DNA of 64,000 bases. Source: Anaeromyces robustus (Eukaryota; Neocallimastigomycota; Neocallimastigomycetes; Neocallimastigales; Neocallimastigaceae). This document shows positions 31,471 to 63,355 of the stretch, piece after piece. The stretch's first letter is position 1. Every line of letters starts with the position of its first letter. The stretch lies in assembly GCA_002104895.1 (NCBI GenBank), contig MCFG01000215.1, forward strand, positions 48,501 to 112,500. Direction: 5' to 3'. Made by a program: the position numbers and the translations under genes. Under the pieces are notes generated by a model. That model made no database searches and was not told the origin of the DNA. It saw only the letters and a list, made by a program, of their open reading frames with translations.

Positions 31471-33187
31471 TGTAACGGTATCAACAACGTGATAAATTCG
31501 TCTATTATCTTAATTTGAAAAATGTCTTCAAAAGTGATAATAGCTTTATCGAGAATAATAGTTTTGTAGATACTTACTTTAAATTCTTTATAGTTTTTGT
31601 TTGAAAGTCAATTCCTTTTCTAAATTTACTACTTTACTTCACTAAGTTTTTGATAATTATTTCGTTAATTATTAATTTTATTTATTAAACTTCTTTAACT
31701 ATAATTTTTATTTGGTTACACTAAAAATTATTTATAATACGTTTTATTATTTGATTTTTAATATTTTATATTTTATTTATTATTTTATTAATTTATTGTT
31801 TTATTATTATTTTATTTTATAAATTTATTACTTGAATTTATTATTTTATTATTTTATAAATTTATTGTTTAAATTTGTTATTTTAACTAATTCTAATTTT
31901 ATTATTAGTTTTATAATTATTATTTAATTATTATTATATTTTATTATTTTATTTTGGTTATTATTTACTATTCTAATAACAACGAAATAATTTTTATAAA
32001 ATTTTTACATGTATTTATATTTTTACAATAATTTAAAGTATTTATAATATTTAATAATAAAATAAATAAAAGAACAATTTTTATTATAGAAAAGAAAATA
32101 AAGAATAAAAATGATAAATAAGAATAATTTTTATTATATAAAAGAAATAAAAGAATAAAGAAATAGAAATTATTTCTATTTAATTTATGAATAATAATCA
32201 TTTAATGATTATCAGCTAAATTAATAATTTTAATTATTAATTTTGTTATTTACAACTTTTTAACTATTTACATTTATTATTTACAATTTTTAATTATTTA
32301 TAAGTTTTAATTATTATTAAAGATTTATTTAATTATTTAAAAATTATTTTTCTTTTGAATTTTATTATTAATATTTTTATTAAATTTTATTTTATTCTAG
32401 AAATTATTTTATTTAATTTATAATTAATATTTATAATATTTATTCTCTTTTTATTTATTTCTTTCTAGAAAACTTAATTATTTTTGTATACTATTAAGTT
32501 AGTATACTGACTAATTTAATTTTAGGTTTAATTAATATTTATATTATATTTTATTTTAGTTAAAATTTATGGTAAATTTTTAATATTAAATTTACCAGGA
32601 ATTATGATTTAATAATTCCATTATTTATCAAACGACATTAAGGAACTTCGTGGCTCAACGATAACTACTTCTACCTTTATCATAGATATCACTGGTTCGA
32701 ATCCTACTTTTACCTTTTTGATTTGGAAAATTATTCATTTATTTAGTTATTAATACATTTGTTCATTTACTTATTTTATTAATAGAATTATTTAGTCTAT
32801 AATTATTCATTCACTTAGTTAGATTTATTTAGATATTAGTTATTCGTTCACTTAGATATAAATACGATTTTATTTAGATACTAATTATGTATTCACTTAA
32901 TTATAGTAATAGTTAAATAATTAAATATTTTGTTATTTAAATAAGTAAACCAATCACGTAATGATTTAGAATAAGTCTTGAATATAAAAGAAATGTATTA
33001 ATATTATTTTTACTCTTTGAGTCATTATTAATAAGAAAAATATTAAATATTTAAATATTAAATAAAATACAAAATAAATCCATAAACATTATGTTTTAAT
33101 ATTGTGTTGTTTATTTTGTTTGTTTATTTTATTTTAATTATTGAAATACTACAACAACCTAGTGAATTTCTCACTAAGTTCGTTACA
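31471..33187 (+). mobile_element. Solo LTR, family D copy 1 (1717 bp), tRNA-like module inside
   Basis: Begins TGTAACGGTATCAACAACG and ends CACTAAGTTCGTTACA, with a perfect ATCAC duplication (31466-31470, 33188-33192). The end section (ACTCTTTGAGTC, then ACAACAACCTAGTGA) matches family D copies at 46919-47501 and 57339-57920. This copy has about 1.15 kb of extra AT-rich DNA between its start and the tRNA-like module, perhaps another nested insertion I could not delimit. Confidence 0.75.
32645..32706 (+). promoter_or_regulatory. tRNA-like module of LTR D1 (A box and B box)
   Basis: TGGCTCAACGATAA resembles an A box, and GGTTCGAATCC is a perfect B box about 45 nt later. The intervening sequence does not fold into a convincing anticodon arm, so this is a Pol III promoter-like relic of a tRNA, not a working tRNA. 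Confidence 0.6.
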
Positions 33188-33305
33188 ATCACGTTGGATC
33201 TTAAGATTGACACTTTAGTTTATTATAATAGGCTGTCATTCAATAGGTTTATTAACATGACTAGCGAATTTAAACACATAAATTCTAATCAAACACTAAT
33301 TTTTA

Positions 33306-34154
33306 CTATTCTTTAAATCTTCTTGGTATTCTTATATCTGGTATAACTACGTATTTATCTCTTTTATCATTAGCATCATTATAATTATAGTCAAAACTAT
33401 TTATTATACTATTATTATTATTATAAATCTTAACATTCCAACCACTAAAATTAAAAGGTGGATCTCTTAAAACTCCTAAAACAAACCATCTTCGTTTTTC
33501 AAATGGTGGATTTCTACCATATTTCTGTACCACACCTGCAAAACCATCCGGGTTTGGTATATGATATTTTATCCCAATTGAATTCTTCTTTTTATCAAAA
33601 TATAACACATACTTCTACCTAGTATCAACATTTGTATTTTTAAATTTATGCAAATCGAATAATACTTCAATTCCGTTAATTTTAATATTTTTAATAGTAC
33701 CATATCTTCTATTATACTCTCTAACATAATTTAATCTCAAGTCTTCCAATCTTTCATCAAAATCTGACCTTCTATCTAAATCATTTGTATTAACACTGAA
33801 ATTACTAGGAATACCCGATCCAATACTACTAGTTCCAAAATTTCTTCTCATAAATCTCCTTCCTCTTGAAAGAAGAGATAGCTCACTTGAATCGTCCAAT
33901 ATCATCGAAGTTACACTGCGAATACGACTACTTCCTGAACTTGAACTAATCGTTATTGGTGTTCTTACTGATCTCGTAAATCTAAAAAATCTATCCGGGT
34001 TAGAACCTGGTGAATAACTTGGTAATCTACCTCTACTACTAATATCACTATATGGCGGTGGTGGACTACCTGGATAATATCTTGATGGTGATGAATTATC
34101 TCTTATTACTTCAAACTCACCTGTATCGCGATTATATCTATAATTTCTATTCAT
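33306..34154 (-). pseudogene. PPPY-motif protein, right inverted copy with an internal TAG
   Basis: Inverted counterpart of 28000-28905. The start (34154) and leader are conserved; the disordered region keeps GSPPPPYSDISSRG. Protein similarity is roughly 65% by eye. One in-frame TAG at 33617-33615 interrupts the frame just before the conserved KYVLYFDKK block; the sequence is otherwise open to the stop after RRFKE. It is a pseudogene unless the TAG is read through or is an assembly error. The stretch between the acidic segment and the TAG is the most diverged. Confidence 0.7.
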
Positions 34155-34266
34155 TTTTAAATTTAAAATTAAAACACTAAAATAAAAAACATACACTAAA
34201 AACACTCTTTATATACTTTTTAACTATCCTTTATTTATTAAATTATTTAATCATACATTCATTATT
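34155..34266. repeat. Conserved spacer, inverted partner of 27885-27999
   Basis: Nearly identical in inverse orientation to the left spacer between the fibre and PPPY genes, including the TATATAAAGAGTG promoter-like core. Confidence 0.75.
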
Positions 34267-35601
34267 TTAATTTGTAGGTAATGGAATTGTAAATAAATTA
34301 GAAGAAATTAAAACAGACGACTTTTTAAATGTACCACCAGAAGGTGAATTAGTATTATCTACTATAAAAAGACTTTCATTAGAGTTATTTTTAATAATTA
34401 ACTGGTAATTAGCTTCAGAATTATAACTGTATACATAAACAGGAGCAACTGGACTTGCTTGTACTTGAAATTGAAAATCGGAACTTGAAACACTAACATA
34501 ATAAATAATTTCATAAAAAGTATATGCCCCAATTGGTGGTTTTACTATTATATAACCACCATTACCAGGAATATTAATATTAACAGTTGAAGTATATTTA
34601 TTTAAATTACTTTCTGTGTTAATTGATAAACTATTATTTCTCATTGCAAAAGTGTTTAATGTAGTATTTAAACCAGTCTGTGGAACATTCACATTCACAG
34701 TAGCGGTTTTTATTCCATCATATTGAGTCGTTTCTAATTTTATTGTATAAGTACCGTTAGCAGTATAAGTTTCTGAAACATTCGTTAAATTAGGTAATAC
34801 ACTAACTCCTAAATTTAAAGAACTTATTCCGTTGTATCCTGTATCTGGAACTATAGTCATTGAACCATTGTGTGTTATAGACATATTTTTCGTTTGTAAA
34901 TTTGCTGTAGTTGGAACATCTACAGTTATAATACCATAACTAATACCGTCATATCCATAAACTGGTGATATACTATGAAGACCATTACTACGAAACGAAT
35001 TTACATAATTTGCTTGTAAATTGGGTTGAACATTGGTTGTTAAATCCACACTACTTAACCCGTCATATCCAGAACTTGCAGATATTGTCTGGGTGCCGTT
35101 ACTTGTTACTGTTAAACTTTTACTTTCTAAATTGGGTTGAACATTAGTAACAACAGTTACTTTACTCAAACCATCAAAACCCATATTAATATCTGGTAAT
35201 ACGGTGGTTGTTGTATTTGATGTAATTGATAAATCTTTTTCTTGTAATTCAATATTAGTTGGATAAGGTTTTGGTTTTTCGTCATCTGGGTATATAGATA
35301 ACTCATAATATCTAGTATCTATAAATTCTCTAAATTGCATTAACTTTGATGATGGTACTAAATATTCACTAAATAATACCATATCATCACTACTATATTT
35401 ACCAATATCTAAATAATATTCATTTGTTCCGGTAATCATTACTGCATCAAAATGGCAATAATAATATTCAATATTTTCACCATTACTTGTTAAATAGTCT
35501 GATCCATTAATAGTTAAAGTTCTATCTGTATTAGTATTATTTACAAAATAATAAAATGAATAATATCTTGTTGACGGTTTTAAATCTCCACCATTCTGCA
35601 T
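34267..35601 (-). CDS. Tail-fibre-like repeat protein, right inverted copy
   Basis: 444 aa. Residues 1-115 are a Y/N-rich domain not seen in the left copy. Residues about 120-310 carry five or six repeats of the same SLTVTSNGTQTIxxxSGYDGL class. The last 120 residues form a tip (NIPGNGGYIIVKPPIGAYTF and following) unrelated to the left copy's tip. The stop and downstream spacer match the left arm almost exactly. The ATG sits within a perfect 18-bp palindrome (35589-35629), so the true N-terminus has probably been lost at a rearrangement. Confidence 0.6.
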   Translation of the reverse strand: MQNGGDLKPSTRYYSFYYFVNNTNTDRTLTINGSDYLTSNGENIEYYYCHFDAVMITGTNEYYLDIGKYSSDDMVLFSEYLVPSSKLMQFREFIDTRYYELSIYPDDEKPKPYPTNIELQEKDLSITSNTTTTVLPDINMGFDGLSKVTVVTNVQPNLESKSLTVTSNGTQTISASSGYDGLSSVDLTTNVQPNLQANYVNSFRSNGLHSISPVYGYDGISYGIITVDVPTTANLQTKNMSITHNGSMTIVPDTGYNGISSLNLGVSVLPNLTNVSETYTANGTYTIKLETTQYDGIKTATVNVNVPQTGLNTTLNTFAMRNNSLSINTESNLNKYTSTVNINIPGNGGYIIVKPPIGAYTFYEIIYYVSVSSSDFQFQVQASPVAPVYVYSYNSEANYQLIIKNNSNESLFIVDNTNSPSGGTFKKSSVLISSNLFTIPLPTN

Positions 35602-35629
35602 ATAGGTTTTTCCTATATGCAGAATGGTG
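35589..35629. repeat. Perfect palindrome, 18-bp arms, at the end of the inverted cassette
   Basis: Arms 35589-35606 and 35612-35629 (CACCATTCTGCATATAGG and its complement) are separated by TTTTT. It includes the fibre start codon, and a family A LTR fragment begins directly after it. This looks like a fold-back junction. Confidence 0.9.
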
Positions 35630-35766
35630 TAATTTGAAATATTATAATAACTAATTAATAATTAATATTTATACTTTAAAATTAATAAAACTTGTTTCTA
35701 ATAAAACATATTTATTTTAAATTACTTTATTGTTTATAAACCTATTGTGTAAAAGCAAAACGTTAC
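35630..35766 (+). mobile_element. 3' end of a family A LTR (truncated)
   Basis: Matches the last 130 bp or so of LTR A4 (50575-51103) almost exactly, ending GTGTAAAAGCAAAACGTTACA. The 5' part with the tRNA-like module and TATA box is missing; it is cut at the palindrome. Confidence 0.75.
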
Positions 35767-35905
35767 ATTCACCTAGAGAACCGCATCTCCGTTTTGATCT
35801 TTCCATTTCCACGTGGTTGTCATCATTATTGGAGGTAACTACTTCATCTTTAGTTCAGATTTTCTTCTTTAGCTTTTTAGATTTTTCAATAGTTGGTTGA
35901 GCCAT
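35767..35905 (-). pseudogene. Short basic coding scrap, possible retrotransposon gag start
   Basis: From ATG at 35905: a lysine-rich start (MAQPTIEKSKKLKKK), one in-frame stop, then about 27 further open codons to a stop next to the LTR end. The composition is coding-like and the location is between LTR remnants. Family not recognised. Confidence 0.3.
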
Positions 35906-36419
35906 AATAGAAGAGTGTAGCAACATATTAGTATATTAAATAATAATTATTAAATATTAATTTATATCCTTTCTTAATAATAATTATTAAAATAATTTAT
36001 ATTTTAATAATTATATATTGAATATTAAATATTTATAATTTAATATATTAAATTAAATAGTTCTTTTATTTTTATATATTTTTTAATATATTTTATTATA
36101 TGTAACTTTAGTATTCTTATGTATTATTAATATTACCGTACATTTAAATATAACCCTTGATTATATTTAAATGTACGGTAATTATTATATAGCTAAATAT
36201 ATTATTATCATATTCTTATATATATTCTATAATATTTTAGTTTATATTATTATATATTAAATATTAAAATAACTATTTAAAATTATTTAATTTTTGTATT
36301 ATTTTTGAAATTTTTCAATTTAATAATCCTCCATATTGGAATTATTAGATCGGAGGTATTTTTGGTTAATAAAATTAAATAATTAATAAAAATAATTAAT
36401 ATAATTTTACTATTAAATG
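35906..36419. other. AT-rich DNA with one perfect palindrome
   Basis: No gene is seen. Arms 36132-36153 and 36161-36182 (22 bp each, starting ATTACCGTACATTTAAATA) are perfect inverted repeats around CCCTTGA. Confidence 0.7.
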
Positions 36420-37088: not shown

Positions 37089-37160
37089 TGCCTATTGACG
37101 GAATCGAACCACCGACCTTCGCTTTACAAGAGCGACGCTCTACCACTAAGCCAAACAGGC
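37089..37160 (-). tRNA. tRNA-Thr (UGU)
   Basis: The minus strand folds into a full cloverleaf. Acceptor GCCTGTT pairs with AATAGGC, the D arm is GCTTAGTGGTAGAGC, the anticodon stem TCGCT/AGCGA encloses the loop CTTGTAA (anticodon TGT), and the T arm is GGTGG/CCGTC around TTCGATT. The discriminator is A. A run of eight T follows immediately on the minus strand as a Pol III terminator. No intron. It looks functional, and differs from the tRNA-like LTR modules in keeping an intact anticodon arm. Confidence 0.9.
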
Positions 37161-37227
37161 ACTGTTAAGTTTCCAATGATAAAAAATGAATAATTAATCT
37201 TAATTTCATTAAGATTACTAAATTCTT

Positions 37228-37909
37228 TGTCAAGACATCAACTGCAATTGAAATTAGAATTTATAATTTCAATTATTTTGATTATATATAATATTATTAT
37301 TTATTATAATAATTATTAATAATTTTTTATAATAATTATATATAATAATTATTATTATAATATTTTATTTTAAATATTATAATATATAAGATTATTTAAA
37401 TAATCTAATAATATATTTTAATATATATATTATTTATATATATTCAATTATATTGAATAATATATTAATTTTATTACTATTTAATATCGATATTAATAAC
37501 TTATTATATTACAAATTATTAATTATATTATACGTTAACGTATCACTTTAAATTAATGTATTAAATTAATGTATTAATATTTTATATTATATTTTATATT
37601 ATTATTATCAAACTTACAAAGTATAAAAGAACATAACATTAAGTTATATTTAATGTTCTTTGTAAGGTTATTAACACCTGAATTATATAGTTATATTAAT
37701 ATTATCAATATCTTATTTTTAAATAAAATTTACTATTAAAAAGTTAATCTTAAAGTGTTATTATTATTATTAAATAAATATTGTGTTATTTGCATTACAA
37801 TTAACTTAGTTATTATTTAAATATTATTTAATTATAAAAACTATATAATTAGTCATTCGACCTAGTAGACTTATTTAAATTAGAAAATAATCCAGTTGGA
37901 AACTTAACA
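37228..37909 (+). mobile_element. Solo LTR, family B copy 1 (682 bp)
   Basis: Begins TGTCAAGACATCAACTGC and ends CAGTTGGAAACTTAACA, with a perfect TTCTT duplication (37223-37227, 37910-37914). A TATA box (TATAAAAG) lies near 37622. It starts 68 bp upstream of the tRNA-Thr 5' end. No tRNA-like module. Confidence 0.9.
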
Positions 37910-38421: not shown

Positions 38422-38735
38422 ATGCCAAAGTTCTCCTTAAGAAAAAACACGGGTTATTCTGCTAAATCGGACGAAGAAATGGAGATGAATCAAGAAGATT
38501 CAGTTCAACAATTAAGAATGGAAGCCTCACAAGCCTGCAATTCCTTAGCTGAAGGGCTTGAACAATTAAGTAATGAGACTTCCCAAGCTTGCTCAAATAT
38601 TATGTCTGGAGTAAATCAAGGCTTCGTCTCAAAGGATGATTTGCAATGTTACCATCAAGAGGTAATGAAACAATTTCAATCCTACGAGCGTGCTAATAAT
38701 GAGATAATGAACTATATAACCCTTTTATATAGTTC
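38422..38735 (+). pseudogene. N-terminal gag fragment of the Ty3/Gypsy element
   Basis: MPKFSLRKNTGYSAKSDEEM followed by a helical, glutamine/serine-rich stretch. It is open until it hits an 11-bp palindrome (38709-38735), where an antisense piece of another Gypsy element begins. It is probably the gag start of the element whose pol is at 40204-43590, because both share the strand and the interrupted layout. Confidence 0.5.
38709..38735. repeat. Palindrome at the gag / inverted-integrase junction
   Basis: Arms GAACTATATAA (38709-38719) and its complement (38725-38735) surround CCCTT. It lies precisely where sense gag gives way to antisense integrase. Confidence 0.85.
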
Positions 38736-39938
38736 TTTAGATCTTAATAACACTTCTTTAATATGATTAAAGTTAACAATTAAGTCTTTAATAATTTTTC
38801 TATTGGTATCTATATCTGGAAGTAAATAATATTCATCCATAGAAGGGTGGAAGCCATAATTTATAAAGAAAGGTGTTTCCTTTGTAGATTCATTAACAGA
38901 ATTATTATACGCAAACTCGGCAAGGTGTATCCAATCAATCCAATCATCATGATAATAAGCTCTAGAATAAGCTCTAAGATATTGTTCAATAAAGGAATTG
39001 GACCTTTCAACTTGTCCAACAGTTTCATGATGGTCGGTTGTAGCTATTTTAGTAGTTATACTTAAGAATTCCATAATATCTTGCCAAAGTGCACTTGTAA
39101 ATTGTGAACCACGGTCTGTATAAATGTCACTTGGAAGGCCGTGCAGTTTAAATATATTTTCTATGAACGCTTTAGCAGTTTGTTTTGCGTCTGGTATTTG
39201 TTTAAATGGAATAAGGTGGATCATTTTTGAAAACCTATCTACAACCACCATTAATACTGTATATCCTTTAGAAGGAGGAAGGCCACATAGAAAGTCGATT
39301 TCAATAGACTTCCAAGGTCTCTCTGGAGTTTCTAAAGGTTGTAAGAAGCCATATTTTCTATGTCTATTGTGCTTATTTCTTGCACAACTTTCACAAGAGT
39401 TCACAAATTTAGTAACGTCATCTTTAATTTTGGGCCACCAGAAGTTACGTAGAATAAGTTCAAGTGTTCTTCTGATTCCAAGATGACCAGCGGCAGGCTT
39501 CTCGTGATATTTTGTTAAAATCTCCAAACGCATCTTTTCAGGAATATATATTAAATTATTATATAAAATTAAATCATCTTTCATTACGAACTTATTCATT
39601 TTTCTAAAAGGTCTATAGTTATAATCATTTTTTGCATTATTAGGGCTGAAGTAAAGTCTAATATCATCAGCGGTAGCATCTGTTTTAGTTTCTTCTTTAA
39701 TTCTTTCTAAAAGGTCGCTTACAACACCAATATAACTTGGAACTTCTTTAACATTTTTAATATCTAAAATGTATTCTTCTTTCCCTTCTTTATTATCCTT
39801 CATATAATCAGGTCTACGAGAAAGGCTATCTGGCTTTCCATTCTTGTTTCCTTGGCGGTAGATTAATTCAAAGTCGTATTCTTGGAAGAAGAGATGCCAT
39901 CTATGTTGCCTTTGATTACCACAGAAACATACTGACAA
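38712..39938 (-). pseudogene. Ty3/Gypsy RNase H end plus integrase, inverted fragment
   Basis: 408 open codons. The beginning is the end of RNase H (LIYRQGNKNGKPDSLSRRPDY). The integrase zinc finger follows (HEKPAAGHLGIRRTLEL then CESCARNK) and then the core with IEIDFLCGLP, IYTDRGSQFTS and DHHETVGQVER, the D,D,E triad in order. PR, RT and LTRs are missing. It differs clearly from the nearby pol, so it comes from another Gypsy lineage. It sits antisense inside the gag of the host element. Confidence 0.85.
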
Positions 39939-40203: not shown

Positions 40204-43200
40204 ATGGATCAATTGGATGATTATCTACTACAAGATTTAGTAAAAGAAGTTGCTTCTACAGAAGTCATCACTAAACTAGGTTATCTTTTAGATTTATTTC
40301 CTAAATTTAGATCTGCATTTAGTAAAGCTCTTAGATTAACACCTAAATCAACAATGAATAATGTAATGACGTTAGTTAATAAATTTAAAATAATTAAAAT
40401 TAAAGGAAAAGTTGAGGGTGTCGATTGCGAAATATTTTTAGATACTTGTGCAAGTGTAAACGTAATTACACGATCAGCTTTAAAGAAATTTAAAATTAAC
40501 AAACCTCCTAGTGGCCAAATTCAGGAAACCATTTTCCAAGCTTACTCGAATTCTTCTATTCAATCGGAAATTTATGACCTGGAAGTTTTAATCGGTGGAA
40601 GAACCTTTTCGGACCAATTTAGAGTCATTGAAAAAGATGATATATTCGACATTTTGATTGGAGTTGACTCACTAAAGAAGAACCGGTTTGATATTAATCT
40701 TGTAAAAGACGATTTATATTATATAGATAATGATAATAATTATCATAAGTTAGCAGATTTATATTATGACATTAATTTTAATATAAACAATACTTCACCT
40801 AATGAATCCAATAATACGGTTAACATGATAAGTAATAATAATCCTGAATCTAACGAGGCATCTGCGGTACTCCTAACATTAACCGTTAACAATGAAGATA
40901 AAATAAAAGAACAAAATAAAATTAATAAACAAGTTTTAATGGACGATATTATAAAATCCTTACCTCCAAGATATCAAGTAAGAGTGCGAGATATCTTTAA
41001 TAAGTTTCCATTTATTTTCGCTATGAAAACGGATGATCTAGGTTCTTCGAAATTATTTCCGCATAAAATCAGATTAGTTCCTGGAGCTAGACCTGTGAAA
41101 TTAAAGGCTTATAGGCTATCTAAGTCACAATCTGTTGCTTTAAAAGAAATTTTAATAAAGTTAGTTAATAATAAATTAATAGAACCATCTTACTCTTCAT
41201 GGTCGTTCCCTATTGTGCTTGTTCCCAAGAAGAATAAAGGCGAGTGGCGTATGTGCGTGGACTACAGGCAGCTTAATCTCTTAACCATTAAAGACTCTTA
41301 TGCCATCCCCATAATTGACGAAATCTTAATGCTTATTGGTAATAAAGTAGGAGTAATTTCTGTTATTGATCTGTTCTCTAGGTACCATCAGATTCCTATG
41401 GCTCCTGAGGATAAAGAGAAGACCGCTTTTACAACCATGTATGGCAACTTTAATTTTTGCGTTATGCCATTTGGTTTATGCAACGCTCCAGCGACCTTCC
41501 AAAGAGAGATGAACCGCATATTCTTTGACCTAATTGGAACTTGTATGTTCGTATATATAGATGATTTAGTAATCTTTTCTGAATCTATTGAACAACATAT
41601 CGATCATCTATATAAAGTTTTTAAAATTTTATCTGAAAATAATTTAAAAGTAAATTTCGAGAAATGTAAATTCTTTCAAGAAAAAGTTACCTTACTTGGA
41701 CACTCTTTATCTACCCGTGGAATCTCTCCGGTACCTGAAAAAGTAAAAGTTATTCTAAGTTGGCTGCCCCCTAAAAATACGACTCAATTAAAATCATTTT
41801 TAGGAGTCGTGGGTTATTACAGAAAATTGATAAAAGATTTTGCTATGATAGCAAAACCCTTATATTGTTTATTGAAAAAAGATAGTATATTTACCTGGAC
41901 GGAAGAATCACAAAATGCATTTAATAATTTAAAATCTTACCTAGCTTCAGCCCCAATCTTAACCCCTCCTGATTATGAGAAACCTTTTATAATAAGAACG
42001 GACGCTTCCAGAGATGGCATCGGTGGTGTCCTATTACAAAAAGATAACGAGAAAAATATAGAGTTACCAATTTTCTTTGAAAGTAGATCTTTGTCTACTT
42101 CTGAAAATAATTATAGTATTACTGACCTGGAAGGCAAAGCAGTCTTCCACTGCGTTCTTAAGTTCAAACCTTTTATTTCAGGTAGCTCCTTTATAACTAC
42201 GGTGATCACTGATCATAAGCCTTTGGTGGGTATTTTTAAAAATAGAGAACCTACCAATAGTAGACACCTCAAGTGGGTCACTGAACTTTCAATCCTAAAG
42301 GTAGAGGTTGTTTACGAAGAGGGGAGGAAGAATGTAATTGCCGATGCTCTTTCTAGGCTATCGACAATTCCTAAAAAAACTATAAATATTATCTATACTG
42401 TTAGTGAAGAAGAACAAGAATATAATAAAAGGGTTAATGATTTCAGAGAAAAATTTATTAAAGAAAGGATAATACACATAGATGGCATTGATTACTATAA
42501 ACAAGGCGATAAACTTAGGAAAATTATTAAAAATATAGAAGAGAAATATTACCTTATCCAAGAAGCACATCAAGTAGGCCACGAAGGTGTTTACAAGACT
42601 TATCACAGACTAAAAAGAGATTATTACTGGAAAAATATGAAAAGAGATATCAATAATTATATTAAATGTTGCTATAAATGCCAAACCTGTAAACCGCAAT
42701 CTTTAAATCAATTTACGGAAGATAGACCAACACCACCTGAATATCCTTTTTCGAGAGTTGGTCTGGATATTATAGGACCCCTACCTATAACAAGAAATAA
42801 AAATAGATATATTATAGTATTAGTGGATTACCTTACCAAATGGGTAGAGGCAGAACCTCTGGTGTCAATTGAAGCCGATGACGTAATAAAATTTTTAAAG
42901 AAAACATTTGCTAGACATGGAGTTCCAGAATTACTAATCACAGACAATGGACCTCAGTTTGTTGCGGACAAGACTAAGACTTTTCTGGACCTACACGATG
43001 TCTATGTACACTATATATCTACTTACCATCCAGCTTCAAATGGACAAGTGGAAAATCGGAACAAAGAAATAAGTAAATACTTAAGGCTACTTGGACAACG
43101 CGACCAAGAATGGGATGAAACGCTATATAGTGCTTTATGGGCACTACGAACCTGTAGAAACGAAACAACAAAATTTAGTAGTTTTGAATTGTTGTATGGT

Positions 43201-43590
43201 AGAAGAGATTTACAACCATTCGAACTTACCTTAAATTTAGAAAAGAAAAATGAATTAGAAAATGAAGACGAATATTGGCTACGTAAGTTTACCGACCATG
43301 ACAAATGGATACGTGAAGCGATAAAAAACGTCAACACGGCTAATAAATTATGGGAAGATAGTAGAAGACAGATCAAACGTATGAGAAGTTCTTATAATCC
43401 TGGTGACTTGGTGCTAGTAAAGGTTTTTAACCGCAGAAAATTAGACCCTTACTTCACTGGACCATTAAAAGTTATCGCTATGAGTTTCAACACAGTAACG
43501 GTTTGTGATCCAGTAACAGGCGAAGTTGCTGATAGGAATATACATTTAAAGAATGTAATTCCTTACTTTTCAGAATTAAATTTAGATTAG
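40204..43590 (+). CDS. pol: Ty3/Gypsy Pol polyprotein (PR-RT-RNase H-IN)
   Basis: 1128 aa and fully open. In order: aspartic protease (IFLDTCASVNVIT, residues 78-90, with D-T-C instead of D-T-G), reverse transcriptase (WRMCVDYRQLNLL near 348, FVYIDDLVIFS near 450), RNase H (IIRTDASRDGIGG near 595), integrase zinc finger (HQVGHEGVYKTYH then CCYKCQTC, near 789-820), integrase core D,D,E (GLDIIGPLP near 854, ITDNGPQF near 913, YHPASNGQVENRNKEI near 941) and a C-terminal region (YNPGDLVLVKV). All catalytic residues of RT, RNase H and IN are visible, so this Pol may be active or recently active. The open frame extends upstream to a TAG at 40128, so the M at 40204 is only a nominal start; Pol is probably made as part of Gag-Pol. 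Confidence 0.95.
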   Translation: MDQLDDYLLQDLVKEVASTEVITKLGYLLDLFPKFRSAFSKALRLTPKSTMNNVMTLVNKFKIIKIKGKVEGVDCEIFLDTCASVNVITRSALKKFKINKPPSGQIQETIFQAYSNSSIQSEIYDLEVLIGGRTFSDQFRVIEKDDIFDILIGVDSLKKNRFDINLVKDDLYYIDNDNNYHKLADLYYDINFNINNTSPNESNNTVNMISNNNPESNEASAVLLTLTVNNEDKIKEQNKINKQVLMDDIIKSLPPRYQVRVRDIFNKFPFIFAMKTDDLGSSKLFPHKIRLVPGARPVKLKAYRLSKSQSVALKEILIKLVNNKLIEPSYSSWSFPIVLVPKKNKGEWRMCVDYRQLNLLTIKDSYAIPIIDEILMLIGNKVGVISVIDLFSRYHQIPMAPEDKEKTAFTTMYGNFNFCVMPFGLCNAPATFQREMNRIFFDLIGTCMFVYIDDLVIFSESIEQHIDHLYKVFKILSENNLKVNFEKCKFFQEKVTLLGHSLSTRGISPVPEKVKVILSWLPPKNTTQLKSFLGVVGYYRKLIKDFAMIAKPLYCLLKKDSIFTWTEESQNAFNNLKSYLASAPILTPPDYEKPFIIRTDASRDGIGGVLLQKDNEKNIELPIFFESRSLSTSENNYSITDLEGKAVFHCVLKFKPFISGSSFITTVITDHKPLVGIFKNREPTNSRHLKWVTELSILKVEVVYEEGRKNVIADALSRLSTIPKKTINIIYTVSEEEQEYNKRVNDFREKFIKERIIHIDGIDYYKQGDKLRKIIKNIEEKYYLIQEAHQVGHEGVYKTYHRLKRDYYWKNMKRDINNYIKCCYKCQTCKPQSLNQFTEDRPTPPEYPFSRVGLDIIGPLPITRNKNRYIIVLVDYLTKWVEAEPLVSIEADDVIKFLKKTFARHGVPELLITDNGPQFVADKTKTFLDLHDVYVHYISTYHPASNGQVENRNKEISKYLRLLGQRDQEWDETLYSALWALRTCRNETTKFSSFELLYGRRDLQPFELTLNLEKKNELENEDEYWLRKFTDHDKWIREAIKNVNTANKLWEDSRRQIKRMRSSYNPGDLVLVKVFNRRKLDPYFTGPLKVIAMSFNTVTVCDPVTGEVADRNIHLKNVIPYFSELNLD

Positions 43591-46298: not shown

Positions 46299-46870
46299 TG
46301 TAATAAATTGTAAAAAATAAATAAATAAATTATTTTAAACAATTATTTATATTTTTTGACCCAATAGGTCAACACAGAAAGTAAATCAGAATAAAATATG
46401 TTTTATAAGAAATATGTTTTATTAGTTTTATTAAAATTTAAAAATTTATTCGTTTATTAATTAATTCTGTAATGTTCTGAATTACTTATAATTAATTAAT
46501 AAAATCGCGAAGAATTAATCATTAAAAAATTTTACACCTATTTATACTTTTTACGGAAAAATAGTTTTCTTCGTAAAAAGTTATTTAAAATTTCTAGAAA
46601 CTTTTGATTAAAATCTTATAGAAAAATTTAGAAAAATTTAATATAAAAGTTGTCTTAAATTTTTGATTGTATTCTATTAATTTCTACGTAAAATACAGAA
46701 ATAAAAATACAGAAATAAAATACAGAAATTTATAATAAAAAATTTAAAAAATAAAATTTTAATAAAGTTTGTAACAAGTGTGAGTCGAACCCAGAGTGTT
46801 CGCCCAGATGGTCATAGTGACTAACCACTAGACCATGGTTACTATTTTATTAATTGTGAGATTCGTTACA
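46299..46870 (-). mobile_element. LTR family A copy 1 (572 bp), nested in B3
   Basis: On the minus strand it starts TGTAACGAATCTCAC and ends TTACAATTTATTACA, with a perfect ATAAC duplication (46294-46298, 46871-46875). It holds a tRNA-like module near its 5' end, a repeated TTTCTGTATTTTA motif, then TATAAATAGGTG as a TATA box in the middle (about 46536-46543) and AATAAA-type signals in the last third. Layout is U3 with Pol III module, TATA, then R-U5. Confidence 0.9.
46771..46842 (-). promoter_or_regulatory. tRNA-like module of LTR A1, 72 nt
   Basis: TGGTCTAGTGGTTAG is a classic A box (as in tRNA-Glu/Asp) and GGGTTCGACTC a classic B box, 44 nt apart. The ends GTAACCA and TTGTTAC can pair in six of seven positions, like an acceptor stem, and the total is tRNA-length. 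The anticodon arm does not fold. The same module is in A2, A3 and A4. Confidence 0.8.
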
Positions 46871-46918
46871 ATAACTATATAATTCAGGTGTTAATAACCT
46901 TACAAAGATGTAAAGATT

Positions 46919-47501
46919 TGGAGTGACCACTAGGTTATTGTAGGAAATTAATAATAAATAATAATATAATATATTAAATTATTTATAACACTATTGATTA
47001 TTCACTTAATTAATTAGTAGATTCATTTATATAATATATATTTGTTCATTTATTTATGGTTGATATTTATATTTTATTTATTATTAATTGATTGTTAATA
47101 TCGACTCAAAGAGTCAAATAAAATAAAATACATGAATTTATATATTCAAAAATCTATTCTAAATTATTACATGATTGGGCAAATTATTTAAAATAAGAAT
47201 TATATAATTATTTAATTATTATTTTAATTAAATAAATATAATATTAAGAACTAGATAAATTATTATATTAATTAAGTGAATAATAAATTAATATTTAAAT
47301 AAATTTATTTCAATGAATACATATTATTAATTTAAGTAAATTATTATCTAATAATTGAGTGAATATATTTATTATTAATTAAATAAATAATATTATTCCG
47401 AAAGGTAAAGAGTAAGGTTTGAACCAGAGACAACCAACATAATAATAGAAGCAGGTAGAACTGAGCCTAATTAGTAGCCATAATGGATCCATATCATTAC
47501 A
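46919..47501 (-). mobile_element. LTR family D copy 2 (583 bp), nested in B3
   Basis: On the minus strand it starts TGTAATGATATGGATCC and ends CACTCCAAATCTTTACA, with a perfect duplication AAAGA (46914-46918, 47502-47506). The tail contains ACTCTTTGAGTCGA as in D1 and D3. Confidence 0.88.
47410..47485 (-). promoter_or_regulatory. tRNA-like module of LTR D2
   Basis: TGGCTACTAATTAGG (degenerate A box) and GGTTCAAACCT (B box) at tRNA-like spacing, beginning about 20 nt after the LTR start. Confidence 0.6.
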
Positions 47502-47829: not shown

Positions 47830-48302
47830 TGTAAAGAACAGAAGTCCAACAATAATAATTCTTAATAAACTTAAAAACACCTCAATATTAGAAAATAAAC
47901 AAGAATTATTGGACACAAACAAACAACAGGTTAGTATCAAATAATTTTATTTATTTTATTATTTCTTTGTTAATAAAAACTCGAATTTTCAAATGAGAAA
48001 ATTCTTGAATATTTATAAACATTATTTCAAAATATTTTAATTACATTTTTCATGAGTTATTATATTCTAAATCTAATTGGTCTATTAACCTTTTTATAAT
48101 AAAATAATATTATCATTTAATACACTTTATAATATATTAATATATAATAAAATAATAATAAAAAAATAAAATAATAAAATAGTAAAAAATAAAAATATAA
48201 ATTTTAACAAAAGGCATTCCTGTGTATTGAACCCAGGAATACTGAGCAGAGTTCTAGAGCTTAACGAGTAAGCCAACTCTATAATTTCTAGTATTCGTTA
48301 CA
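47830..48302 (-). mobile_element. LTR family E (473 bp), nested in B3
   Basis: On the minus strand it starts TGTAACGAATACTAG and ends GGACTTCTGTTCTTTACA, with a perfect TAATT duplication (47825-47829, 48303-48307). A tRNA-like module follows its start; the rest is AT-rich with no frame. Confidence 0.88.
48214..48285 (-). promoter_or_regulatory. tRNA-like module of LTR E1
   Basis: TTGGCTTACTCGTTAAGC (A box) and CTGGGTTCAATAC (B box). The second half forms a 7-bp hairpin ATTCCTG/CAGGAAT around the B-box loop. It resembles but does not complete a tRNA fold. Confidence 0.6.
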
Positions 48303-49841: not shown

Positions 49842-50535
49842 TGTCAAGACATCAAGTGCAATTGAAATTAGAATTTATAATTTCAATTATTTTGATATAT
49901 AATATTATTATTTATTATAATAATTATTAATAATTTTTTATAATAATTATATATAATAATTATTATTATAATATTTTATTTTAAATATTATAATTTAAGA
50001 TTATTTAAATAATCTAATAATATATTTTAATATATATATTATTTATATATATTCAATTATATTGAATAATATATTAATTTTATTACTATTTAATATCGAT
50101 ATTAATAACTTATTATATTACAAATTATTAATTATATTATACGTTAACGTATCACTTTAAATTAATGTATTAAATTAATGTATTAATATTTTATATTATA
50201 TTTTATATTATTATTATCAAACTTACAAAGTATAAAAGAACATAACATAAAGTTATATTTAATGTTCTTTGTAAGGTTATTAACACCTGAATTATATAGT
50301 TATATTAATATTATCAATATCTTATTTTTAAATAAAATTTACTATTAAAAAGTTAATCTTAAAGTGTTATTATTATTATTAAATAAATATTGTGTTATTT
50401 GCATTACAATTAATTTAGTTATTATTTAAATATTATTTAATTATAAAAACTATTTAATTATAAAAACTATATAATTAGTCATTCGACCTAGTAGACTTAT
50501 TTAAATTAGAAAATAATCCAGTTGGAAACTTAACA
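49842..50535 (+). mobile_element. Solo LTR, family B copy 2 (694 bp)
   Basis: Starts TGTCAAGACATCAAGTGC and ends GTTGGAAACTTAACA, with a perfect TTAAA duplication (49837-49841, 50536-50540). It differs from B1 by a short internal duplication (TTAATTATAAAAACTAT) near the 3' end, shared with B4. Confidence 0.9.
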
Positions 50536-50574: not shown

Positions 50575-51103
50575 TGTAACGAAACTCATAATCAGTAAAT
50601 TAGTAACCATGGTTTAGTGGTTAAATACTATGACCATCGAGCTGGACTCCTTGGGTTCGACTCACACTTATTCTCAATTTATAAAAAATTTTTTATTTTA
50701 AGAAAAATTTATTATTAATTTCTGTATTTTATTTCTGTATTTTATTTCTGTATTTTATCATAGAAATTAATAGAATAAAATCAGAAATTTTCGGATAAAA
50801 AATTTTTTATAATTTATCCTTTTTCCATAAGATTCTTTTTTATCAAAAAAATTTAAGTTTCGAGAAATTTTTAGAAATTTTTATTATTTTCAAAAAAATA
50901 TAAATAGGTTTAAAATTCATTAATAAAATATTTTTAAATTCGTGCTTTTATTAATTAGTTTATAAGTAATTTGAAATATTATAATAACTAATTAATAATT
51001 AATATTTATACTTTAAAATTAATAAAACTTATTTCTAACAAAACATATTTATTTTAAATTACTTTATTGTTTATAATCCTATTGTGTAAAAGCAAACGTT
51101 ACA
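50575..51103 (+). mobile_element. Solo LTR, family A copy 4 (529 bp)
   Basis: Starts TGTAACGAAACTCATAATC and ends AAAAGCAAACGTTACA, with a perfect AATAT duplication (50570-50574, 51104-51108). The tRNA-like module is at about 50603-50673 (TGGTTTAGTGGTTA, GGGTTCGACTC), and a TATA box (ATATAAATAGG) lies near 50907. Its 3' third is different from A1/A2 but the same as the fragment at 35630-35766. Confidence 0.9.
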
Positions 51104-57338: not shown

Positions 57339-57920
57339 TGTAACGAATATGAATTATTCTCACTAGGTTGTTGTAGTAATTAATAATAAATAAAACAACA
57401 ACATGAATAGCTGGAATAAAATATATTGAAATATTTATTAAACTGAACGATTTAATTATTTATGGTTTTATATTATTTTATTTATTACTAATTGAAATGT
57501 TAATGTTGACTCAAAGAGTCAAAATAAAATAATACATGAAGTTTTTATATTCAAAATCTATTCTAAGTTATTACATGATTGGTTATATAATTTAAAATAA
57601 AATATATTTAATTATTATTAAAATACAATTTATCTAATTATTAATTAATCTATCCATTTGCTAATTATTAATAATTTATTTAGTTAATTAATGTGTATTC
57701 ACTTAATTAAGATTTATTTAACTTATTATTTATCATTCATTTAATTAAATTATAAGTTTATCTAAAAATTAATGATTCATTCATTTAATTAATTTATTAT
57801 TATAAATATTATTTCGAAAAGGTAAAAAGTAAGATTTGAACCAGTGACAACCAGTATGATATTACAAGCAGGTACCAATGAACCACTTTAGTAACCATAA
57901 CGATTCTTGATATCGTTACA
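57339..57920 (-). mobile_element. LTR family D copy 3 (582 bp), inserted in gag
   Basis: On the minus strand it starts TGTAACGATATCAAGAATCG and ends ATTCATATTCGTTACA, with a perfect GTCTG duplication (57334-57338, 57921-57925). It contains ACTCTTTGAGTCAA and ACAACAACCTAGTGAG as in D1. A tRNA-like module lies at about 57835-57900 (TGGTTACTAAAGTGG, GGTTCAAATC). Confidence 0.92.
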
Positions 57921-58356: not shown

Positions 58357-58928
58357 TGTAACAAATGATACAAATGGTAAATATCTTAATTCTAAATAGG
58401 CTTAGAAAGTGATATTTACCTGTATTCAAATATTTATTATAGTAAATAAATTTAAAAATTGTTTTATAAGAAATTTAAATATGTTTTATTATAAAAATCT
58501 TTATTTATTAATTATTAATTTAATACATCTTGTTATGTATTATTACATGAAATTTTATTAAAAAATTTAATATAATACTTCTAGTAAGTATTATTACTAA
58601 TAATATCTAATTTAGGCTAATTAGTAACCATTTTATATTTTAAAATTAATCTAAGAATATTATTAATTATTAATTATTATTTATTATCTAATTTTTATGG
58701 CTAATTAGGAACAAATTTAAAAGAATATTTTATAATTTATTTTTATACTAATTTCTAGAATTAAGCTATGTTTATAAACAATTATTAAAGTATTTAACAA
58801 TAAATTGTTAAATAATTATTTTATTTTTAATATTTATAAATTTAATATAATTATTATTATTTTATAATATTTTAAATAATTAAATATTTTATAATTTAAT
58901 GTTTAATTTAATATTGATAATTTTTAAA
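58357..58928. mobile_element. Left part of a further TGTAAC insertion (interrupted by LTR C3)
   Basis: Begins TGTAACAAATGATAC directly after ATAAC (58352-58356). A second ATAAC occurs at 60298-60302 right after GGCGATTGTCA, so an element spanning 58357-60297 and holding C3 inside it is possible. A clear B box is not seen. AT-rich, no frame. Confidence 0.4.
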
Positions 58929-60258
58929 TGTTAAATGTGGGTAGTTTTGGTTTAATAATGGTCAGGTCAAGATGTTTAATTAATAACAAAATAACTAATT
59001 AAACAAATATATAATTGATAGGCAAATTTTTATAACACAACAAAATAATTAATTAAAAGAACACTTTTTAAAATAATTAAGTTTTATAATAATATTTTTT
59101 ATTAATAATTAATTAAGAAAAGTTTAAATAATAATTAGATTATTAAGTCATTAATTCTAAGTTAGTTAATAATCTTACAAAGATTAAAAGGAATTGTAAT
59201 TTCAATCCTTATTTATACTTTTTCTAAAACTAATAATTATTAATACATTTAATTATTATAATCTATTGATAATATATTTATACATGTATAATTTTAAATA
59301 AAATATATGAATAAAATAATATTGATAAAAATCTAACTATATAAAACTAATATAAAACTATATAAACTATTAATAAATTTAATGATAAGAATCATAATCT
59401 AAGATTTAGATTTATAACTATTCTAATTATCTAACTAGTTAACTATTTAATTATTTAATTGTTTAGTATACTATTTAATTATTTATCTATATATTAATTA
59501 TTTTTATCTTTGGATTTTTATAATCTTTTCTGTATAATTAATTATTATAGATAAAATGGGATATTTTTAATTATTTAAGATCTTAAGTAAATTTTAAATC
59601 TTTTTGAGATTTTTAGAATTCTAAGAATTTCTGTAAATTAATATAATAATCAACTATTCTAATTTTTTATAAAATAATTAACAATAATTATAATATATAA
59701 TATAAATTATTATTATTATTCTAATTAATATTTCATAAATTATTTGAAGGCGTTTTCTGTATATCTGAATGAATTATTATTATTATAAATTATAATATAA
59801 TTATTGAAATAAAAAGATTTTATCTATATAAAATATTATAATTATTTATTTATAGATCCTTGTAAATATTTAATTATATTTTTATATTGTGTAAACCTTT
59901 AAAGTCCAATATCTCGCCAACCAGTGGTCCAAATGGGCTGAAATTCAGATATGTTGTAGCTCTCGAGCAGAGCTTCCCAATGAGCATAAAATCAAAGCGA
60001 AGCGGAGGAAATCTTCAATATTTGCCAAGTTATCGTTATTTTTCTTCTGATTATTTTTACTAATATCTTAAGGGTTAAATTAAGTTGATTAATATTTATT
60101 TAATTTGTCCAAACCCTTTACAATATCAATTTAAATGCTTTTTAATATTTGTTTATTTTATTGAAAATCGAATTTTAAGTGATTTAGTCAATAACGAAAT
60201 TTAAATGTAATTGATCTATTAGTGAATTTCAATTTTAAATCCACTAATATTCGCGACA
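58929..60258 (+). mobile_element. LTR family C copy 3 (1330 bp)
   Basis: Starts TGTTAAATGTGGGTAG and ends TTCGCGACA; very close to C1. Flanks TTAAA and TCGCT do not match. The following GCTCCCCCAAAG is unlike the AT-rich surroundings and could be internal element sequence. Confidence 0.82.
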
Positions 60259-60302
60259 TCGCTCCCCCAAAGAAAATCGAATTCCAGGCGATTGTCAATA
60301 AC

Positions 60303-60916
60303 TGTAATAAATTGTAAAAAATAAGTAAATTATTTTACACAATTATTTTGATTGTAATAAATTGTAAAAAATAAGTAAATTATTTTACACAATTATTTTG
60401 ATAGACCCAACAGGTCTACACAGAAAGTAAATCAGAAAAGAAGATTGGTTTTATAAGAACTTGTTTTATTAGATTTATTAAAAGTAAAAATTTATTTATT
60501 TATTAATTAATTTTGTAATATTCTGAATTACTTATAATTAATTAATAAAATCGCGAAGAATTAATCATTTAAAAATTTTACACCTATTTATACTTTTTAC
60601 GGAAAAATAGTTTTCTTCGTAAAAAGTTGTTTAAAATTTCTAGAAACTTTTGATTAAAATCTTATGGAAAAATTTAGAAAAATTTAATATAAAAGTTGTC
60701 TTAAAATTTTTGATTGTATTCTATTAATTTCTACGTAAAATACAGAAATAAAAATACAGAAATAAAATACAGAAATTCATAATAAAAATTTAAAAAATAA
60801 AATTTTTATAAAGTTTGTAACAAGTGTGAGTCGAACCCAGAGTGTTCGCCCAGATGGTCATAGTGACTAACCACTAGACCATGGTTACTATTTTATTAAT
60901 TGTGAGATTCGTTACA
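60303..60916 (-). mobile_element. LTR family A copy 2 (614 bp)
   Basis: On the minus strand it starts TGTAACGAATCTCAC and ends TTACAATTTATTACA. It has the A1-type 3' end with the last 48 bp or so duplicated in tandem. The tRNA-like module is at 60817-60888, identical to A1. Left flank ATAAC, right flank ATTAT, so no clean duplication; its right side lies inside a family B LTR. Confidence 0.85.
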
Positions 60917-61538
60917 ATTATAATAATTATTAATAATTTTTTATAATAATTATATATAATAATTATTATTATAATATTTTATTTTAAATATTATAATTTA
61001 AGATTATTTAAATAATCTAATAATATATTTTAATATATATATTATTTATATATATTCAATTATATTGAATAATATATTAATTTTATTACTATTTAATATC
61101 GATATTAATAACTTATTATATTACAAATTATTAATTATATTATACGTTAACGTATCACTTTAAATTAATGCATTAAATTAATGTATTAATATTTTATATT
61201 ATATTTTATATTATTATTATCAAACTTACAAAGTATAAAAGAACATAACATAAAGTTATATTTAATGTTCTTTGTAAGGTTATTAACACCTGAATTATAT
61301 AGTTATATTAATATTATCAATATCTTATTTTTAAATAAAATTTACTATTAAAAAGTTAATCTTAAAGTGTTATTATTATTATTAAATAAATATTGTGTTA
61401 TTTGCATTACAATTAATTTAGTTATTATTTAAATATTATTTAATTATAAAAACTATTTAATTATAAAAACTATATAATTAGTCATTCGACCTAGTAGACT
61501 TATTTAAATTAGAAAATAATCCAGTTGGAAACTTAACA
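60917..61538 (+). mobile_element. LTR family B copy 4, 5'-truncated
   Basis: Matches B2 from about position 70 to its end (GTTGGAAACTTAACA). The B start is missing and LTR A2 is joined instead. Confidence 0.8.
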
Positions 61539-61592
61539 ATTATTAATGTAACAATGTATTACTATTAGCTAAATACATTGAAAGAGTTATTC

Positions 61593-61676
61593 CTACCGGG
61601 GGTTCCCCGACTGACGTAGTCGTCAGGTTGTTGGACTCTGACCTACCTGTCATGAGTTCGACTCCGGGTATCACCC
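61593..61676 (+). promoter_or_regulatory. tRNA-like module of LTR F
   Basis: ACTGACGTAGTCGTCAGG (A-box-like with its own stem) and GAGTTCGACTCCGG (good B box), within an unusually GC-rich 80-bp block. It looks like a class II or degenerate tRNA; no clear anticodon arm. Confidence 0.6.
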
Positions 61677-61678
61677 TC

Positions 61679-61729
61679 AGTTATGGATCAAAATATAACT
61701 ATTTATTAGTTATATTTTGATCCATAACT
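61679..61729. repeat. Perfect 23-bp palindrome directly after the tRNA-like module
   Basis: Arms 61679-61701 and 61707-61729 (AGTTATGGATCAAAATATAA start) are exact inverse complements around TTTAT. As RNA this would be a strong hairpin within the LTR. Confidence 0.92.
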
Positions 61730-62084
61730 CTTCCACTCTTTTTCTTCACAAACCATGAAATCAACCAATCGTTATGAGTGAATTTCACTCATAAAGTATT
61801 GTTTATGTATATTTCTAACTTATAAATATATATTCTTGTAATTTCATGTAAAATTAATCTCTAGAATTAGTATTAAGATTAAAATAAATATTAATAATAA
61901 ATAAAATTGTTATTAAAACTCATTAATCTTATAACATAAAAAGTATAATTAGTATTGTGTTAACCTAAGTCGTTAGCGTTGTTACAATACTAATTCTCAT
62001 TGAAAAATAGACTTACCTTAACACAATTTTTTTTTTTAATTTTTTCTGATTAATAAAACTATTTTCTAATAAAACATTTTTAAT

Positions 62085-62650
62085 ATGTCATACAACCCTT
62101 TTCACGCTGCCGCCGCCGCCTCCTCTCAGCAATCTGCCGCCGATGCTGCCATGTTAGATTTCATGTTCCCCCTTGGAAAGCCGCCCAAGTTTTCTGGAAA
62201 CAGTTTAGACCTCGAAGGTTTTATCCAGCATTGCGAAATCAATTTTCGCATGAAAAGCTTGTTATTCCGAAACGACTCGTACAAGGTTGCCTATATGTTC
62301 TCCTTCATGGAAGGTGATGCTAAACTCTTTGTAGCACACCTGATCCAAGCTGGTAATCCTGTTCTAAACAACTACGATGCCTTTGTTTCGTTAATGAGGA
62401 GAGTGTGTGGAAATATAGACATCGTTTTCAATAGTACTCAAATCATTATGGCCCTCAAGCAAGAACGTATCGGTGAAGTCAGCCAATATATTAAGGACTT
62501 TGAACAAGCCGCTGTACACCTTGGATGGAATCAATCTGCATTAGTAGCTAAGTTTATAGATGGGCTTCACGAAGAAGTCAAATGCGAATTACTAATGCGT
62601 GGAGATAGTATTCCTACTCTTCTTTCTGCTTTCCATAGGGCTATGATAAT
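62085..62650 (+). pseudogene. gag: Ty3/Gypsy Gag (capsid-type), cut by LTR A3
   Basis: Starts MSYNPFHAAAAASSQQ. It shows the Retrotrans_gag pattern: PPKFSGNSLDLEGFIQHCE, SYKVAYMFSFMEGDAKLF, and QYIKDFEQAAVHLGW near the end. GC content is much higher than its neighbours, suggesting a young element. The frame runs into LTR A3 at 62651 and ends 16 bp later (stop at 62664-62666). No zinc knuckle or pol follows after 63355. Confidence 0.88.
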
Positions 62651-63355
62651 TGTAACGGAACGGTAGTTCCAATATTACAATTGACACCGATATTGAAAAC
62701 GTACACGAAAAGAAAATAAAATAAAAGAAAGTTAATTATACTTTGTAATATCGGAACACCTTTCCTTTGTTAACCCGGAAGGTCGGCGTCGATATATATT
62801 AGTATAATTTTAATTTATTTTTTATTTAAAATTTGTTTTATTAGAATATAGTTTTATTAATTATTAAAAATTAATAATAACTAATCTTTGTAGTATTTCG
62901 AACTACTTATGAATTAATTATTACTAATATATATAAAAGTTATTAAAAGAATAAAAGCACAAAGAAAAATATTTTAACTAAAAGTTTTACACCTATTTAT
63001 ACTTTTTGCGGAAAAATAGTTTTAAAAATAAAAGTTCATAAAAAATAATAAAAATTGCTAGAAACTAAGATATTTTGTTATAAAATGAATCTCATAGAAA
63101 AATAAAGAAATATTATATAATTTTTTCTTAAAGTTTCTAATTTTATTCCATGTAATTCTATAAAGAAATACAGAAATAAAATACAGAAACAAATACAGAA
63201 TAAAATACAGAAATTTATAATAAATAAATTTAAAATAAAATTTTTATAAAATTTGGAACAAGGTGTGAGTCGAACCCAGAGTGTTCGCCCAGATGGTCAT
63301 AGTTACTAACCACTAGACCATGGTTACTATTTTACTAATTGAGAGATTCGTTACA
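62651..63355 (-). mobile_element. LTR family A copy 3 (705 bp), inserted in gag
   Basis: On the minus strand it starts TGTAACGAATCTCTC and ends CTACCGTTCCGTTACA. The tRNA-like module is at about 63255-63327 and a TATA box (AAAAAGTATAAATAGG) near 62996. Its 3' end differs from A1 and A4 and includes CGACGCCGACCTTCCGGG. Flanks ATAAT/TTATA do not match, so the gag on the other side has been lost by later recombination. Confidence 0.82.

Follow-up and report, generated by a model that had tools for sequence, protein, structure and literature searches.

What do tRNA-type promoter boxes do when they lie inside the long terminal repeats (LTRs) of retrotransposons? The question is raised by a window of 64,000 nucleotides (C130:48501-112500; 82% AT), the whole stretch analysed, within the 70-Mb genome of the anaerobic gut fungus Anaeromyces robustus. 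Over the region queried, the protein of a glycosyltransferase frame in the window is 100% identical to BCR32DRAFT_295122 of A. robustus. In this window, A and B boxes of the kind used by RNA polymerase III (Pol III) form modules near the 5' LTR end in families A (four copies), D (two copies), E, F and G. Upstream of tRNA genes, insertions occupy two fixed places, which are about 73 and about 21 bp away from the A box, and the LTRs H, I and D1 share one distance upstream of tRNA genes that matches their distance at A and F LTRs. The shared insertion distances suggest that the modules of A, F and E assemble the machinery of tRNA transcription. We consider it highly probable that several families carry a Pol III unit in their U3 region, which in A, F and E would assemble TFIIIC/TFIIIB, and probably Pol III itself, in vivo.

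Insertion distances at tRNA genes and LTR modules

Within the window, an H LTR (37228..37909, minus strand; duplication read as AAGAA/TTCTT) lies upstream of a genuine tRNA-Thr gene (37089..37160, minus strand), at 74 bp from its A box. LTR D1 (46909..47501, minus strand; own A box 47480, B box 47425) lies 73 bp before the A box of A1 (46299..46870, minus strand; A box start 46835, B box 46791), a second H LTR (49842..50535, minus strand) 74 bp before that of A2 (50575..51103, plus strand; A box 50610, B box 50654), and a third H LTR (60917..61538, minus strand), which is cut by A3, has its other edge 73 bp before that of F (61547..61986, plus strand; A box 61612, B box 61655). LTR I (30102..31433, plus strand; duplication TGATG) stands 72 bp before the A box of E (31471..33187, plus strand; A box 32651, B box 32694) when element J is discounted by its length. 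J (31490..32630, plus strand; ends TGATAAAT..ATTTATCA; 4-bp duplication AACG) was inserted inside E, for which reason the E module is found 1.18 kb from the 5' end of an LTR of 572 bp (J and one duplicated 4-mer subtracted), and the inner edge of J lies 20 bp before the E A box. The duplications at such edges, TCTTT for D1 by A1, TTTAA for H by A2, TAAAC for H by an A LTR (L004) and ACCAT for I by an F LTR (L071), identify the insertions as integrations.

Further copies were retrieved from the genome by LTR similarity or by closeness to A, F or tRNA loci and thus constitute a non-random sample. Ten LTR types were annotated across 90 retrieved loci and the window, edges were measured to the A box across 1500 bp, and anchors sharing more than 97% of the upstream 200 bp were merged, which reduced 148 anchors to 102 unique ones (33 at tRNA genes, 32 A, 17 F, 5 E, 10 D1, 2 D2 and 3 G). 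The 33 tRNA genes had eight edges at 71–74 bp and nine at 20–23 bp. Upstream of the 32 A modules, five edges were found at 71–74 bp, one at 80 bp and two at 21 bp; the 17 F modules had three edges at 73 bp and two at 21–23 bp, and the five E modules two at 20–23 bp. When the density of edges of H, I and D1 is taken into account, the Poisson chance of the counts at 71–74 bp is 1.4e-11 for A and 1.3e-7 for F, and on the downstream side the nearest edge was at least 162 bp away in every group. Locus L002 has edges at 72 and 21 bp that stand outside the pattern count, as a changed base caused the pattern to miss them. The end motif J3, comprising 10 letters with one mismatch allowed, is noisy in AT-rich DNA, so that the near position at about 21 bp rests mainly on two genome-wide tests with the element ends TATCA and TTATCA.

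In these and the other genome-wide tests, all counts refer to one fungal genome, that of A. robustus. When TATCA was combined with the family-A A box and gaps of 3–33 bp were allowed, 34 of 34 matches fell at 19–22 bp and the reversed control gave 0; 21 distinct strings were distinguished by eye among the 34. The unmodified A LTR reads TCTCACAATTAG, and three of the matches (C217, C364:41164 and C453) differ from it by one or two substitutions and may be point variants, not insertions. With the longer end TTATCA, all 19 matches were at 20–22 bp. The far position was addressed with GACA and the family-A A box at 44–104 bp, for which 17 of 31 matches fell at 72–74 bp when 1.5 were expected (P 8e-15), or 16 of 30 after removal of one duplicate. 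A search for the H end followed by TGTAACG, with a gap of 1–61 bp allowed, gave eight matches with gaps of 37, 39, 39, 37, 37, 37, 45 and 39 bp, two of which share sequence; recurrence of seven of these eight places in the GACA test assigns them to family A. In the downstream control at least three matches lay at known A copies (C130, C194 and C767, with gaps of 44, 17 and 10 bp) and formed no cluster.

The F LTR was inserted into 8 bp outside its start and the A LTR 37–39 bp outside, and both insertions are 72–74 bp from the A box. The distance is also kept where a J-type insert lies between LTR start and box (L078; C336, C337 and C608). Since it is the A-box distance that stays constant, and not the distance to the LTR start, Pol III factors are indicated as the explanation, with TFIIIC/TFIIIB as the probable bound factors. 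A reading of the window made from its sequence alone (in the following, the sequence-only reading) had listed attraction of Pol III-targeted integrases among several possible roles of the boxes. The positions strongly support such an attraction at A, F and E and give no sign of it at D and G, and a selected purpose as decoy would be a further inference.

Elements with TGATA..TATCA ends and 4-bp duplications, of types J, K, L and M, were seen 20–23 bp before A boxes in the window (31490-32630) and at L043, L052, L056, L059 and L077. Many identical or near-identical genes for tRNA-Arg(tct), tRNA-Glu and tRNA-Thr are clustered within a few kb (L031-L060; C219, C378, C151, C181, C213 and C353), and in L031-L060 several of the clustered tRNA genes have LTRs at fixed upstream distances.

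The boxes and the elements that carry them

Counted from the LTR start, the A box begins at nt 22–66 and the B box at nt 70–109 in A, D, E, F and G. The start-to-start spacing is 44 bp in A, 43 bp in E, 42 bp in G, 55 bp in D and 43 bp in F, compared with 43 bp in tRNA-Thr and 45 bp in tRNA-Arg (the F B box and the F, tRNA-Thr and tRNA-Arg spacings were counted by eye from printed sequences). The A box of G differs at one place from the A-box consensus, and D combines a poor A box with wide spacing. All five LTR families fall within the range of 30–60 bp given for Pol III promoters (PMC5391098), which bears out the proposed Pol III-type promoter unit. Boxes at tRNA spacing near the LTR start had been proposed for A, D, E and F; they hold there and extend to G, which had not been named, whereas the ends are not uniformly TGTAAC..TTACA, as D1 starts with TGTAAT and both D1 and G end with TTTACA.

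The sequence-only reading had also proposed a tRNA covariance search. Between 30000 and 64000, at E<=10, the Rfam tRNA model matched the real tRNA-Thr and no LTR unit, which indicates that no cloverleaf was kept. An identity of the LTR units as tRNAs was consequently rejected. Among the non-random copies that span the module, an intact pair of boxes is retained by 46 of 48 in A, 22 of 24 in F, 15 of 17 in D1 and 4 of 4 in G, and among diverged A subfamilies the boxes are identical save one C/T. Most retrieved copies thus keep the module, and every duplication read at the LTRs has 5 bp, so neither loss of the module in most copies nor duplications of SINE-like variable length were seen.

In family A, a TATA sequence follows about 290–320 bp past the A box, in agreement with the Pol II TATA box that had been placed about 300 bp downstream. 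A search for terminator T-runs had likewise been proposed beforehand. In A, D2, E and G, a T-run begins 14–35 nt past the start of the B box; in F it lies farther away (by eye), and in D1 the first one comes at 232 nt. From the early T-run, we infer a short RNA of about 75–120 nt that would end before it.

That the carriers are LTRs and not short interspersed elements (SINEs) was confirmed. In the window, 5-bp duplications were read as GTTAT at A1, AATAT at A2, TCTTT at D1, CAGAC at D2 (57339..57920, minus strand; A box 57897, B box 57842), ATCAC at E and AATTA at G (47830..48302, minus strand; A box 48275, B box 48233), the last of which sits in an H LTR. A 5-bp duplication is absent, as read directly in the window, at A3 (60353..60916, minus strand; A box 60881, B box 60837) and A4 (62651..63355, minus strand; A box 63320, B box 63276). 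Solo copies of family A are flanked by 5-bp duplications, the same primer-site sequence follows some of the copies, and the same purine-rich stretch precedes others. LTR pairs together with primer and polypurine sites and the 5-bp duplications led to the rejection of a SINE identity. Like tRNA-derived SINEs, the LTR units have A and B boxes without a tRNA fold, but unlike SINEs they belong to elements with these LTR hallmarks.

The DNA similarity searches score about the best 40 copies, so that copy counts are lower bounds. Same-strand LTR pairs of family A have starts 6.7–7.1 kb apart, as in the pair at C219:75805 and 82537. In all three A loci read (L024, L025 and L006), the region that precedes the 3' LTR was open, and in L024 it contains an rve integrase core, SH3_Tf2-1 and Chromo; neither gag nor reverse transcriptase was seen in this part of the A interior. 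In the window, the primer site adjoins the F LTR and the start of the F gag frame (62085..62666, plus strand) is cut by A4. The uninterrupted frame at L061 scores Ty3_capsid and Retrotrans_gag, in agreement with the Ty3/Gypsy gag that had been placed behind F. F encodes gag/capsid and protease (L061) as well as rve, SH3_Tf2-1 and Chromo (L069), has a primer site and polypurine tract at L072 and L069, and forms an LTR pair 5.1 kb apart (C469:1844 and 6918). A and F are therefore coding Ty3/Gypsy chromoviruses in which the integrase is followed by a chromodomain, an arrangement seen in A and F but not in E, D or G. No relatives of the F integrase were found in viral contigs. D LTR pairs are 1254–1383 bp apart, corresponding to elements of about 1.85–1.97 kb, and the single D1 interior read (L053) showed no evident retrotransposon frame. 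Among 40 scored matches of G, 32 were full-length at the top score, and G pairs are 6.9–7.0 kb apart.

A tandem duplicate of the last ~50 bp ends some A LTRs (window 60300-60403; L012, L014-L016), giving two LTR lengths; in the window it lengthens the tail of A3. The F LTR contains a near-perfect hairpin with arms of about 20 bp at 61680-61728, downstream of the F B box.

Alternative readings and known systems

One role proposed for the module was that of a self-supplied primer for reverse transcription. In A1, A4, F, G and D1 (5/5), an LTR stretch of 11 nt (12 nt in F) is the exact complement of the sequence at which LTR end and primer site meet. It begins 35–42 nt past a TATA-like sequence that was picked among 2–5 candidates per LTR, and matches of equal length occurred in 12, 8, 0, 8 and 0 of 500 shuffled LTRs of the five families. 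The stretches differ among families, each fitting its own primer site. In contrast, the longest junction match within the module region (nt 1–130) is 5–8 nt in all five families, and the accessible passages on the Helenus elements discussed below likewise report no match between module and primer site (PMC10886601). Judged from these complementarities, the module does not prime reverse transcription; the proposal was rejected, and we assign it practically no probability. The layout resembles that described for Tj1, where the primer site is complementary to the RNA start (PMC4600332, as far as its accessible passages go). A and F are similar to Tj1 and the Tf1 type also in having SH3_Tf2-1 and a chromodomain, with a primer site that would pair with the inferred RNA start, but differ in the Pol III boxes of their LTRs, none of which we met for Tf1/Tj1 in the accessible parts of the open-licence literature.

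Helenus, or TRIMp3, is the closest known system (Kojima, 2024; PMC10886601). The passages available describe tRNA-like LTRs in non-autonomous terminal-repeat retrotransposons in miniature (TRIMs) of rusts, some Agaricomycetes, animals and Selaginella, and state that a fair number of LTRs in Repbase look like part of a tRNA. The principle of a tRNA-type LTR, which had been thought new, is thus already known. Helenus elements are TRIMs of less than 1 kb (longest 1263 bp), Copia-mobilised in fungi and tRNA-primed, and autonomous partners, according to the same source, must use Pol II promoters. As far as these passages allow a comparison, the elements described here share with Helenus the A and B boxes in the LTR, the 5-bp duplications of the fungal members, the mostly missing functional tRNA fold, the occurrence of several families per genome and the lack of complementarity between module and primer site. 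Unlike Helenus as described there, the coding chromoviruses A and F combine the module with a TATA box, a putative self-priming match and targeted integrations at the module, whereas D is short like Helenus, yet longer at 1.85–1.97 kb. If the module worked as in Helenus, it would be the element's own promoter and its Pol III transcript the template of retrotransposition. The short, non-coding D with its boxes and the principle established by Helenus speak for this, and the distant first T-run would leave it possible in D1. Against it stand the coding capacity and the 6.7–7.1 and 5.1 kb between paired LTRs in A and F, the T-run soon after the B box in A, D2, E and G, and the self-priming match that follows the TATA sequence, away from the module. 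For the genome's elements as a group, a Helenus-like working appears quite unlikely to us.

Insertions could also respond to DNA sequence or shape near LTR starts without any Pol III factors, in which case the boxes would be a passive relic of tRNA or SINE capture. The AT-rich flanks of the insertions and the persistence of D and G boxes with no sign of insertions are in line with this. Several observations weigh in the same direction against bound Pol III factors. The 10 D1, 2 D2 and 3 G anchors gave no edge at the two positions, the genome-wide TATCA test gave nothing at G modules, and the same test at D modules returned 19 matches to D2's own sequence plus two strays; G may be free of insertions since it is too young. 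GACA is a short word and 14 of its 31 matches lay outside the peak at 72–74 bp, two off-peak neighbours of A (L014 at 119 bp and L011 at 140 bp) were retained in the edge counts, and the downstream control with A1 3' ends was background-dominated and weak (53 matches, 56 when reversed). The boxes of A1, A2 and A4 are conserved, yet other LTR blocks are equally or more so. However, tRNA genes, A, F and E share little besides boxes and still show two identical distances, the F LTR start is offset by 30 bp from that of A with no change of the A-box distance, and the same holds for the copies in which J separates the LTR start from the box, so that we regard a reading of sequence or shape as unlikely. 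A single insertion copied by duplication or by spread of chimeric LTRs would fit the sequence shared by some matches (C209 and C633 in the GACA test, recurring strings in the TATCA test). It was rejected on the grounds that the inserted elements (D1, H, I, J-type and M), the target families (A1, A2, A4, F and E), and the flanks and 5-bp duplications (TCTTT, TTTAA, TAAAC and ACCAT) differ and that the 34 TATCA matches comprise 21 distinct strings, which makes such an origin very improbable.

With Pol III factors on the A, F and E modules as the preferred explanation, the unit of A and B box would act in U3, with a separate TATA box for Pol II farther downstream, and assembly of TFIIIC/TFIIIB, probably with Pol III, in vivo would turn every LTR copy into a portable landing pad through which tRNA-seeking elements are drawn into the DNA of retrotransposons. 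Repeated landing would then build nested clusters such as that of the window. The likeliest benefit to the carrier may be an occupied, nucleosome-poor stretch upstream of its own Pol II promoter; diversion of rivals could be a by-product, with a gain to carrier or host being conceivable. More tentatively, and as somewhat less likely than not, these tRNA-gene mimics could be a selected trait of autonomous chromoviruses, whose copies, solo LTRs included, would stay open and occupied by Pol III factors and soak up tRNA-seeking rivals. If so, retrotransposon DNA would account for a large part of all Pol III-type landing sites in the genome and form a self-building safe haven by which the host tRNA genes are spared.

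Fixed-distance insertion upstream of tRNA genes is described for Ty3, Tyl3, DGLT-A and TRE5-A in the accessible parts of the respective papers (PMC5006619, PMC5391098, PMC5911963, PMC5014426). The near position observed here, 13–16 bp before the mature tRNA start, resembles that of DGLT-A (~15 bp; PMC5006619) and of Ty3/Tyl3 (15–17 bp; PMC5014426), as given in those passages. On Dictyostelium ribosomal DNA, TRE5-A inserts at A/B-box loci without other tRNA context, from which its authors infer Pol III complexes (PMC5391098, in the part available); this is a precedent for integrations as reporters of such complexes. Unlike the targets of Ty3, Tyl3, DGLT-A and TRE5-A, the box loci described here lie inside the LTRs of other retrotransposons. 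Cassandra and Ajax share the Pol III promoter in the LTR, although theirs is derived from 5S rRNA and the elements are non-autonomous (PMC10886601, same passages). The findings thereby join Pol III promoters in LTRs with retrotransposons aiming at Pol III genes. According to the passages of Kojima (2024), tRNA-type LTR promoters have so far been those of non-autonomous miniatures, with activity inferred from conservation (PMC10886601). In the open-licence literature, partly accessible as passages, we found neither LTRs of coding chromoviruses that combine a TATA box with a Pol III unit nor positional evidence of activity. Insertion scars would record past positions of Pol III factors and allow the activity of the module to be assessed for each family from DNA sequence alone, with a positive outcome for A, F and E and none for D and G. 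This offers an explanation of nested retrotransposon clusters in an AT-rich genome, and makes the benefit that an element draws from its module directly testable.

Other features of the window

The first 14 letters of LTR H, TGTTAAGTTTCCAA, occur at 37162-37180 beside the tRNA-Thr gene, the H copy itself being 66 bp upstream, and are perhaps an old H remnant. An intact Ty3/Gypsy pol frame of 1128 aa at 40204-43590 comprises protease, reverse transcriptase, RNase H and integrase and gave no chromodomain match; a reversed second integrase frame (38712-39938) adjoins it. A two-gene block, consisting of a repeat-rich frame and its neighbour, is present twice in opposite orientations at 26646-28905 and 33615-35601 and flanks the LTRs I and E. 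Farther upstream, a CotH-kinase-like frame is located at 18176-18964 and a glycosyltransferase frame of 990 aa at 19911-22883.

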